NCBI GenBank assembly: GCA_025462645.1
Contig: JAOAPB010000028.1
Coordinates: forward strand, 62,001-126,000
From: Edaphobacter sp.
GTDB taxonomy: Bacteria > Acidobacteriota > Terriglobia > Terriglobales > Acidobacteriaceae
DNA length: 64,000 nucleotides
Direction: 5' to 3'
Both the position numbers and the translations under genes were made by a program. Below are positions 14,886-16,740 of this stretch, one piece after another (position 1 is the first letter of the stretch; the number at the start of each line of letters is the position of its first letter). The notes beneath the pieces were generated by a model. That model saw only the letters and a list, made by a program, of their open reading frames with translations. It made no database searches and was not told the DNA's origin.

Positions 14886-14993
14886 AATTTCATGCAGAGT
14901 GGTTGAGGGACGAGCCCTTTGATGCCACGACAACCGGACAGAACAAAGGCGTACCGGTGTCAACTCTCTCCTGGAGACAGGGAACATGAGATT
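14886..14993 (+). promoter_or_regulatory. SAM-I (S-box) riboswitch
   Basis: The aptamer core is recognisable. A nine-pair P1 is formed by AATTTCATG (14886-14894) and CATGAGATT (14985-14993). It is followed by GAGTGG, GAGGGACGAGCCC, the GATGCC and CAACCGG segments, and the CCGGTGTCAA segment near 14954-14963. These match the order and spacing of the S-box consensus. S-box RNAs turn off methionine, cysteine or SAM synthesis and transport genes when SAM is plentiful. The next gene, 122 bases on, is annotated by similarity as threonine synthase, which is unexpected for this regulator. A covariance search with the Rfam SAM model would settle it. Confidence 0.85.
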
Positions 14994-15091
14994 CGGAGCA
15001 CGCAGTCCCGAATTAAGGCCTGCACCCCGCATTTCACCTTCCTGGCCGTTCACGGCAAATCCAAAAGAGAGTACGTCAAAAGCCCAGATTC

Positions 15092-15111
15092 CTCTTTCCC
15101 CTCGGAGAGAG
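15092..15111 (+). promoter_or_regulatory. Hairpin sequestering the ribosome binding site of the threonine-synthase-like gene
   Basis: CTCTTTCC (15092-15099) pairs over eight bases, one of them a wobble, with GGAGAGAG (15104-15111), which is the ribosome binding site four bases before the ATG. AAAGAG at 15064-15069 could instead pair with CTCTTT and free the site. This looks like a translational expression platform; it is inferred from base pairing only. Confidence 0.55.
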
Positions 15112-15115
15112 CGCA

Positions 15116-16396
15116 ATGAACTATTCCTGTACCAGGTATGAGCTGAAGTGCAATGAGTGCGACAAACGATTCGGCAACCAGCCGCTCTCCGCCTGCCCCG
15201 ACTGCCTCGCGCCACTTGAGGTGGTCTACGATCTGGAAGCAGCTCGTGGCGTCTTCACCCGCGAAGCCATTGCAGCAGGCCCAGCCAATATCTGGCGCTA
15301 TGCCGCTCTGCTCCCCATCCCCGAGGGCTTTCAGCCCGATCTCCCGGTGGGCTTCACCCCACTGGTGAAGGCTACGAACCTCGGCAAGCGCATCGGAGCG
15401 ACCAATCTCTACGTCAAGAACGATGCCGTCTGCTTCCCGACCCTCAGCTTCAAAGACCGCGTCGTCTCCATCGCCCTGGCCAACGCCCGGCGCTTTGGCT
15501 TCGAGACGGTGGGAGCCTCTTCGACCGGCAACCTGGCCAACTCCGTAGCTGCCCAGGCAGCGCGCCTCGGTCTCAAGGCCTGCATCCTCGTTCCGGCTGA
15601 TCTCGAGCCTGCCAAGATCCTCAACACCCAGGTATACGGCGCGCGTCTCGTCCGCATCGACGGCAACTACGACCACGTCAACCGCCTCTGCACCCTCATC
15701 GCCGACGAGTACAGCTGGGGCTTCGTCAACGTCAATCTGCGCCCCTACTATGCCGAGGGCTCGAAGACCGTTGGCTACGAGATCGCCGAACAGCTCGGCT
15801 GGCGTCTTCCCGACAACGTCGTCGTCCCCATGGCGGGCGGCTCGCTCATCCGCAAGATCCGCAAGGCCTTCCAGGAGCTTGTCTACCTCGGTTTGGTCGA
15901 AGACAAGCCCGTCCGGTTCTTCGGAGCACAGGCCACCGGTTGCTCTCCCATCTCCACAGCCGTAAAGCAGGGAACGGACAACATCGAACCGCAGCGCCCG
16001 AACACGATTGCCCGCTCGCTCGCCATCGGCAACCCGGCTGACGGCCCGGCGGCTGCCAAGATGATCCGCGACACCGGCGGATGGGCTGAGGATGTCTCCG
16101 ATATCGAGATCGTCTCCGGCATGCAGGAGTTGGCAGAGACCGAAGGCATCTTCACCGAGACTGCTGGCGGCGTCACCACAGCCGTTACCGCACGGCTCTA
16201 CGCGCACGGGCGCATCTCGCCCGACGAACTCACCGTGACCTGCATCACAGGCAATGGTCTCAAGACAACTGACGCGCTGGCCGGACACTACCGGGAAGAG
16301 CGTGCCGTCCGTCCGCGCCTGGCAGACTTCGATGTCTACCTTCGTGAACTGGATGGTATCGCCGTACCCGAATTGGCCGCCGCAGGAGGAAATTAA
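15116..16396 (+). CDS. Threonine synthase-like PLP enzyme under SAM riboswitch control
   Basis: This 426-residue fold-type II PLP enzyme begins with a zinc ribbon (Cys12, Cys15, Cys27, Cys30). The PLP lysine is Lys113 in LSFKDR and the phosphate-binding loop is SSTGNLANS. By similarity it is ThrC, which turns O-phosphohomoserine into threonine. Two context facts argue for a sulfur role instead: a SAM-I riboswitch precedes it, and a CysO/MoaD-like sulfur carrier gene overlaps its stop. Relatives with the same ribbon include cysteate synthase, and mycobacterial CysM uses a carrier-bound thiocarboxylate with an O-phospho substrate. I infer it may add sulfur to O-phosphohomoserine or O-phosphoserine. 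Plain threonine synthase remains possible. Confidence 0.85.
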   Translation: MNYSCTRYELKCNECDKRFGNQPLSACPDCLAPLEVVYDLEAARGVFTREAIAAGPANIWRYAALLPIPEGFQPDLPVGFTPLVKATNLGKRIGATNLYVKNDAVCFPTLSFKDRVVSIALANARRFGFETVGASSTGNLANSVAAQAARLGLKACILVPADLEPAKILNTQVYGARLVRIDGNYDHVNRLCTLIADEYSWGFVNVNLRPYYAEGSKTVGYEIAEQLGWRLPDNVVVPMAGGSLIRKIRKAFQELVYLGLVEDKPVRFFGAQATGCSPISTAVKQGTDNIEPQRPNTIARSLAIGNPADGPAAAKMIRDTGGWAEDVSDIEIVSGMQELAETEGIFTETAGGVTTAVTARLYAHGRISPDELTVTCITGNGLKTTDALAGHYREERAVRPRLADFDVYLRELDGIAVPELAAAGGN

Positions 16397-16677
16397 TGTC
16401 AATCAAAGTATCGCTTCCCACCGCCTTCACCCGCCATACCGATGGCCGCAAGCAGTTCGACTCCGTCGCCGAGAATCTTCCCGGTCTCCTCGCGGACATC
16501 GACCAGACATTTCCGGCTCTCGGCACGCAGATCAAAGGCGAAGACGGCAAGCTCCGCCGCTTCATCAACATCTACGTCAACGATGAGGACATCCGCTTCC
16601 TCGGCGGCGAGACCTACTCGTTCCAGGATGGTGATGAGGTCATGCTCATCCCCTCCATCGCAGGCGGTAACGCCTAA
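16396..16677 (+). CDS. CysO/MoaD/ThiS-like sulfur carrier protein
   Basis: This 93-residue ubiquitin-like protein closely resembles mycobacterial CysO as I remember it, especially the stretch INIYVNDEDIRFLGG and the closing DGDEVMLIPSIAGG. Such carriers are adenylated at the terminal glycine by a MoeB/ThiF-type enzyme, converted to a thiocarboxylate, and donate sulfur to a partner enzyme. The Gly-Gly is followed by two more residues (Asn-Ala), so activation would need trimming, as known for some carriers processed by JAMM peptidases. The ATG overlaps the stop of the PLP-enzyme gene by one base (TAATG), with GGAGG upstream, so the two are made together. A strong terminator follows. Confidence 0.88.
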   Translation: MSIKVSLPTAFTRHTDGRKQFDSVAENLPGLLADIDQTFPALGTQIKGEDGKLRRFINIYVNDEDIRFLGGETYSFQDGDEVMLIPSIAGGNA

Positions 16678-16709: not shown

Positions 16710-16740
16710 AAGGCGCGCCAAATAATTGGCGCGCCTTTGC
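16710..16740 (+). terminator. Rho-independent terminator after the sulfur carrier gene
   Basis: AAGGCGCGCCAA (16710-16721) pairs perfectly over 12 bases with TTGGCGCGCCTT (16726-16737) around a four-base loop, with T residues at the 3' edge. It ends the riboswitch operon. Confidence 0.85.

Follow-up and report, generated by a model that had tools for sequence, protein, structure and literature searches.

A metM–metO-like operon under a SAM-I riboswitch in Edaphobacter, a predicted acidobacterial route to homocysteine

Introduction

Mycobacteria synthesize cysteine with CysM, CysO and Mec+, and the Wolinella proteins HcyS, HcyD, HcyF and MetY use a carrier thiocarboxylate to make homocysteine from O-acetylhomoserine, a JAMM protease removing the extra C-terminal residue of the carrier. 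In Streptomyces, Hasebe et al. (AEM 90:e01247-24, 2024) reportedly described the pair MetM and MetO, with metO downstream of metM. Here we analyse a locus of this type in a 64,000-nucleotide (nt) stretch of Edaphobacter sp. DNA (contig JAOAPB010000028.1, hereafter the window), where an S-adenosylmethionine (SAM) riboswitch is followed by a metM-like and a metO-like gene. The part of PMC12172450 (2025) at hand terms MetM a homocysteine synthase and places a SAM riboswitch upstream of S. albulus metM; this was the only source that a literature search pairing MetM with Acidobacteriota turned up. Operons of ThiS/MoaD, E1, JAB and cysteine synthase genes are also on record, and type 4c, in the available excerpt, includes one acidobacterium (Iyer et al. 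2006, PMC1779556).

Very probably, to judge from its sequence and context, the locus is a SAM-repressed metM–metO operon making homocysteine via the MetM/MetO route. Its enzyme and carrier are thus most likely, on prediction, to produce the step before methionine. The reading is supported by the presence of SAM-I, which tracks MetM in the window's family, and by a downstream carrier in a genome that has a separate thrC–thrB-like pair and a separate cysM–JAMM–cysO–moeZ cluster. It is further supported by the absence of MetA and HcyBio and the unconvincing MetX of this genome, together with a phylum-wide avoidance of other homocysteine routes; by operons of relatives that add E1 and cysteine-desulfurase-like genes, and by SAM-II-like aptamers in others; and finally by a separate MetM clade, in which Nonomuraea shows the same gene order, and by the published precedent. 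What was computed directly comprises the riboswitch, through a covariance model, the genes with their arrangement and conservation, and their companions, as well as the failure to find the alternatives.

Results

A SAM-I aptamer, a ThrC-like enzyme and a sulfur carrier

The locus consists of the following features:

14887–14992, + strand: SAM-I (S-box) riboswitch aptamer, covariance match to RF00162
15092–15111, + strand: candidate expression platform, hairpin CUCUUUCC-CCUC-GGAGAGAG, from local folds
15116–16396, + strand: metM-like gene for a pyridoxal phosphate (PLP)-dependent threonine-synthase homologue of 426 amino acids with Lys113 and a Cys4 ribbon, predicted homocysteine synthase
16384–16389, + strand: AGGAGG ribosome-binding site of the carrier gene, within the 3′ end of metM, from reading the sequence
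16396–16677, + strand: metO-like gene for a CysO/ThiS-family sulfur carrier (PF02597 ThiS) of 93 amino acids, C-terminus ...SIAGG-NA
16710–16737, no strand assigned: 12-bp inverted repeat, doubtful terminator with a weak T-run on the + strand

A sequence-only reading of this DNA had named most of these elements, and the computations bear it out on all but one. Its S-box aptamer was recovered by RF00162 on the + strand at 14887–14992, over the full model (1–108), with 68.1 bits against a gathering threshold of 44.4 (E 9.6e-14); in the 5.96-Mb genome this match stands alone (150 of 518 first-look candidates scored). Its ThrC-like PLP enzyme matches both PF00291 and the thrC model TIGR00260 (271 bits, cut-off 167), with Lys113, the PLP lysine, placed in SFKDR, and the four cysteines of its ribbon, C12, C15, C27 and C30, are invariant across 12 aligned sequences, the window's among them. 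The CysO-like carrier, matched by PF02597, does overlap the enzyme gene by one base, shared between the stop TAA (16394–16396) and the start ATG (16396–16398). The strong terminator that had been placed after the carrier fared worse: on the + strand the hairpin at 16710–16737 is followed by TTTGCTAT, a poor T-run, and a terminator scan reports it on the − strand only, at about the background rate (2 in the region, 1.9 in shuffles).

By local folding, the hairpin at 15092–15111 pairs with the Shine-Dalgarno sequence directly before metM. Twelve same-genus leaders were folded (L060 left out), and in 11 of them the Shine-Dalgarno sequence is likewise paired in a local hairpin, the exception being L063. 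The stems occur in compensating versions, CUCUCC/GGAGAG and CUUUCC/GGAAAG; a MAFFT alignment of these hairpins was misregistered by loop length, and no pair counts were drawn from it. Against such a platform, folding of the whole leader was no better than that of shuffles (z −0.01); aptamer and leader folded together gave z −2.71. We rejected an anti-P1 switching element 3′ of the aptamer, its complementarity being no better than in shuffled regions. The predicted switching mechanism is probably the hiding of the metM Shine-Dalgarno sequence at high SAM.

The enzyme lies in a MetM clade apart from solved threonine synthases

All six best NCBIfam models of the metM-like protein are threonine synthases; the score with PRK08197, 277 bits, stays under the 303 cut-off of that model. 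Neither NCBIfam models nor solved structures assigned the protein to the CysK/CysM family, and cysteine synthases among the solved structures were reached at E ~3e-4 at best. In two relatives, L066 (G179) and L067 (G225), the MetM proteins have serine at Cys positions of the putative zinc ribbon.

In a 38-protein tree, a branch supported at 100/99 sets apart all 30 sequences of MetM type, including four cyanobacterial proteins and the sole actinomycete, Nonomuraea gerenzanensis (Actinomycetota), which came from a search of a plasmid collection. Its SAM-I ends 44 nt before the matched MetM region and its carrier follows 40 nt after. The other side holds two further proteins of the window's own genome (from contigs C124 and C18), the solved ThrC of Thermus and Aquifex, and four plasmid-borne proteins annotated as thrC; the window enzyme does not group with the solved threonine synthases but forms a clade apart from Thermus and Aquifex at the same support (100/99).

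With a score above the thrC cut-off, the window enzyme could be an ordinary or bifunctional threonine synthase, its carrier and riboswitch being incidental or coupling threonine to SAM, and the threonine synthase activity of a Microcystis homologue in vitro, given in the accessible part of PMC12172450, points the same way. We nevertheless regard this as improbable. Where the solved ThrC and the C124 protein share NSVNP[HY]R[LI]EGQKT, the window enzyme reads NVNLRPYYAEGSKT instead of the NSVNPYRLEGQKT motif that C124 keeps. The genome also has two further ThrC-like genes, one of them overlapping a thrB-like gene, SAM control in relatives would run through two riboswitch classes, and other homocysteine routes are avoided.

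Riboswitch and carrier accompany metM in relatives

We surveyed 247 Acidobacteriota genomes: 60, across 22 families, contain a close MetM (at least 393 bits and at least 46% identity in 58 genomes, plus two fragments, G112 and G215), and 187 are without MetM. A same-strand carrier lies downstream of metM in 33 of the 60, with 708–4,325 nt of downstream DNA covered; 32 of these carriers are within ~320 nt and one is at 2.6 kb. In a scan with stricter filters, a same-strand SAM-I was counted at most 390 nt upstream of metM in 32 of the 60 MetM genomes and at 1.3–2.4 kb in 5 more.

The association is tightest in the window's own family, where 21 of 26 genomes have MetM and 20 of the 21 have a downstream carrier; G023 shows none in the 1,010 nt available. 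Exactly one SAM-I match per genome was found in 20 of the 21, its end lying 107–269 nt upstream of the metM match; in the remaining genome, G112, the contig ends within metM. Conversely, none of the five family genomes without MetM has a SAM-I match; four of them hold MetX (at least 376 bits), and the fifth has neither MetM nor MetX.

One contig scan gave 590 relatives, the best 80 of which, together with Nonomuraea, make up 81 named loci; no Streptomyces is among these best 80. A same-strand downstream carrier is present in 76 of the 81, and 35 match a model derived from SAM-I sequences of acidobacteria. For the cyanobacterial loci the figures are 24 of 24 for the carrier and 0 of 24 for this model. 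The conservation of the riboswitch–enzyme–carrier order, raised but left open by the sequence-only reading, is thus established as a recurrence, and so as more than chance. At some loci with neither carrier nor riboswitch nearby (L215, L216, L220, L221 and L223), a second ThrC-like gene lies within ~1–2 kb of the MetM-like one.

Genomes with MetM avoid other homocysteine routes

MetX, MetA or HcyBio occurs in 2 of 45 genomes with a carrier or SAM riboswitch near metM, versus 79 of 187 without MetM (Fisher p 1.9e-7, groups counted by hand; this and the following p values treat kindred genomes as independent, uncorrected for phylogeny). Over all MetM genomes the count is 6 of 60 versus the same 79 of 187 (p 1.8e-6), and it is 6 of 39 versus 75 of 182 (p 0.003) when the window's family is set aside. 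For MetX only, it is 3 of 60 versus 55 of 187 (p 3.8e-5). A MetX match had to score at least 215 bits; this limit was set from a score gap seen afterwards (215.9, then 175.1) and used because no genome, control genomes included, reached the curated 500 bits. No such avoidance is seen in the 15 MetM-like genomes without a nearby carrier or riboswitch (4 of 15, p 0.29), whose MetM-like genes may do something else.

Telling operons and a second riboswitch class

The order SAM-I, E1, cysteine-desulfurase-like gene, metM, metO occurs in four genomes (G128, G019, G153 and G169; L192–L195), all from a single other acidobacterial family. Their E1-like proteins are ~47–49% identical to the E1 on C108 of the window's genome, and the gene after E1 encodes a class V aminotransferase that resembles cysteine desulfurases (Pfam assignments from the G019 proteins only). 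Judged by their gene content, these operons place the steps of activation and sulfur supply, along with enzyme and carrier, under a single SAM sensor.

Outside the phylum, a Myxococcota locus (L163) has SAM-I, metM and a MetO–NIL fusion ahead of two CysK/CysM-looking PF00291 genes and a JAMM gene. In a Desulfuromonadales locus (L150), E1 and then metM come after SAM-I and a gene that looks CysK/CysM-like by eye; next are a gene resembling sulfite reductase, a carrier with a tail and, again by eye, an E1-like gene. The L150 carrier has the same kind of extension as that of L163: a C-terminal NIL domain stands straight after the di-glycine at L163:5257–5772 (by Pfam) and L150:6627–7142 (by likeness).

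Five genomes that have no SAM-I match (G235, G051, G063, G009 and G132; L205–L209) carry nine SAM-II-like aptamers (RF00521) ~0.1–1.1 kb upstream of metM, with tandem pairs in four of the five. One scores above the Rfam cut-off (36.3 versus 36) and eight score 24.8–33.4, the weakest with an E of 0.2. In the MetM tree these five genomes form a clade (100/97). By eye, a G+C-rich stem and a T-run, terminator-like, follow each of the nine aptamers. A conserved CUAAA(C/G)AG-type element can form 63 of 72 pairs with the terminator loop region, beyond the maximum of 61 (mean 56.0) in 500 single-base shuffles, and this anti-terminator pairing therefore adds support for the SAM-II-like leaders. Covariation in the P1 helix adds little, since only one pair in five varies there, a level reached by 65 of 500 shuffles. 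Between the aptamers and metM of G235 lies a gene that looks, by eye, like a short-chain dehydrogenase.

At the other metM loci without SAM-I, searched with relaxed thresholds (L204, L210–L224), no SAM class was seen; L225 is excepted, having SAM-I. Tandem SAM-II riboswitches are known from 44 examples in the available text of PMC9481103, which has no match for 'Acidobacter', and no report of SAM-II at metM is among the papers listed by our literature searches.

Companion genes in the same genome

The genome has ten PF00291 matches and three ThrC-like genes: that of the window, one on C124 and one on C18, near the contig end. The second thrC whose existence the sequence-only reading had left to a genome-wide search is therefore there, and the C124 gene overlaps by 4 bases a GHMP kinase gene that reads as thrB. 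From this pair ThrB can supply O-phosphohomoserine.

Neither MetA (PF04204) nor HcyBio (PF01837) had a match in the genome. The MetX model TIGR01392 has three. The best reaches 83 bits on a partial model alignment, and the alpha/beta-hydrolase-like protein that it hits seems, by eye, to begin with a signal peptide. No convincing homoserine acylation gene was seen; with the assembly 96% complete and with 5% contamination, such absences are not proof. On a short contig (C72:1–2000, L034) a CysK/CBS-like gene sits beside a cystathionine gamma-lyase/synthase-like gene, possibly for reverse transsulfuration.

On C39 stand in a row cysM, a JAMM protease gene, a second CysO-like carrier gene and moeZ (E1 plus rhodanese), so the cysteine branch owns its enzyme and carrier. 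It is thus very unlikely that the window enzyme makes cysteine from O-phosphoserine and carrier in the manner of mycobacterial CysM, although the closest solved structure of the window MetO is mycobacterial CysO (3dwg, 1.7e-19) and cysteine genes can, as is generally known, be under SAM-I control. The C39 carrier is 34% identical to MetO, the best models and solved relatives of the enzyme are threonine synthases rather than CysM, and the avoidance pattern concerns homocysteine genes.

A tail after the di-glycine of MetO

Two residues (NA) follow the di-glycine of the window MetO, which would need trimming first, and a processing protease is expected. At least one residue follows GG in all 19 carriers examined from genomes of the window's family; in 11 of these, which are not independent, it is directly a cysteine. 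A tail is also present in 29 of 33 acidobacterial loci (L111–L143, from the best 80 of 590 matches), and 4 of 33 end exactly at GG (L125, L131, L134 and L143). More distant acidobacterial carriers end at GG in 9 of 9 cases, as do the cyanobacterial ones; the nitrospinal and nitrospiral carriers found have short tails too.

Elsewhere in the genome, the C39 CysO (C39:17138–17401, L046) runs past its di-glycine as GG-C and MoaD as GG-CSV. ThiS ends in GGGI; further carrier loci are on C81 (L045) and C15 (L044). The C39 JAMM protease has an intact HxH...SxxD motif, and we infer that it could act on MetO. A more speculative proposal, which we hold doubtful, is that the MetO of Acidobacteriaceae is usually a pro-carrier, whose gene-encoded tail would mimic a carrier–amino-acid adduct, so that the Mec+-type JAMM of the cysteine pathway primes it, with the unrelated SAM-I and, mostly in tandem, SAM-II having come to control the same homocysteine step across the phylum. 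The tail is termed usual, not universal, because of the 4 in 33 near acidobacterial carriers that end exactly at GG. If true, cysteine and methionine synthesis would be coupled via one protease.

Discussion

We propose the following pathway; its catalysis throughout, the proteolysis and the way the switch works are what we infer. MetO would first lose the residues beyond its di-glycine, probably to the JAMM (Mec+-type) protease that the genome encodes, then be adenylated by an E1-like enzyme, MoeZ of C39 or the E1 of C108, and thiocarboxylated with sulfur from rhodanese or cysteine desulfurase. MetM would take ThrB-made O-phosphohomoserine on PLP, eliminate phosphate and add the sulfur of the carrier thiocarboxylate to give homocysteine, so that both free sulfide and homoserine acylation would be bypassed. 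At high SAM the SAM-I aptamer would fold and expression be shut, probably via the hidden metM Shine-Dalgarno sequence.

Several observations weigh against this proposal. The main evidence against a simple reading, as far as the part of PMC12172450 at hand goes, is the in vitro synthesis of threonine by a cyanobacterial homologue, the ThrC of Microcystis, which shares 51.6% identity with S. albulus MetM. With sulfide this enzyme gave only an unidentified peak. The kinship of the window MetM to that of Streptomyces appears to be indirect, judging by the relatives found. Among the 60 MetM genomes, 27 have no carrier in the 708–4,325 nt of downstream DNA, 6 also hold MetX or MetA, and 16 with full-length MetM have neither SAM-I nor SAM-II. 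The window MetO itself does not end in GG. Finally, 108 of the 187 genomes without MetM have none of MetX, MetA and HcyBio, and therefore further routes exist that were not found here.

Given that a second ThrC-like gene stands beside some MetM-like genes of relatives, one might think of another sulfur compound made from a phosphorylated amino acid, but homocysteine would fit SAM feedback, the alternatives missing from the genome and what is known from Streptomyces, which leaves that idea hardly credible.

The sequence-only reading had the ThrC-like enzyme and thiocarboxylated carrier making homocysteine or cysteine. Context supports the first, from O-phosphohomoserine; the second, from O-phosphoserine, is disfavoured because of the separate cysM–JAMM–cysO–moeZ cluster. 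A covariance match exists and this is not the sole thrC, both in keeping with the inference drawn then. The idea of a distinct sulfur-assimilation module gives way to a match with the MetM/MetO of Streptomyces: the system is already known, and the locus, by its sequence, is an acidobacterial case of it, with genomic support for a methionine role.

Altogether, our results suggest a homocysteine route for a soil-bacterial family where no convincing homoserine acyltransferase turned up beside MetM. The riboswitch context is independent evidence that MetM/MetO serve methionine beyond Streptomyces, and annotations as 'threonine synthase' together with 'MoaD/ThiS' would sometimes have to be re-read as methionine genes.

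Comparison with known systems

A ThrC with an adjacent metO-like gene is also cyanobacterial, as in Microcystis: the four cyanobacteria of the tree belong to the same clade, and each of 24 cyanobacterial loci has a carrier downstream; in contrast, these 24 loci have no SAM-I match, and the part of PMC12172450 available reports none for Microcystis and gives its enzyme as a threonine synthase and deaminase in vitro. With the CysM/CysO/Mec+ system and the operons of Iyer et al. (in the excerpt available) the genome shares the carrier family, E1 plus rhodanese and the JAMM protease, including a type 4c-like row on C39, whereas the PLP enzyme of the window is ThrC-like, by prediction SAM-controlled, and equipped with its own carrier.

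The Wolinella system resembles the locus in a carrier with a C-terminal extension and in a carrier thiocarboxylate used for homocysteine, here a prediction, but employs MetY and O-acetylhomoserine where we propose a ThrC homologue and O-phosphohomoserine. MetM/MetO of Streptomyces has in common with the locus a ThrC homologue and a sulfur-carrier gene; as far as the available part of PMC12172450 shows, a SAM riboswitch upstream (in S. albulus) and the proposed reaction are shared as well. The Edaphobacter locus differs from it in belonging to another phylum, in a carrier that runs two residues past GG and in having one group of relatives where SAM-II-like aptamers replace SAM-I.

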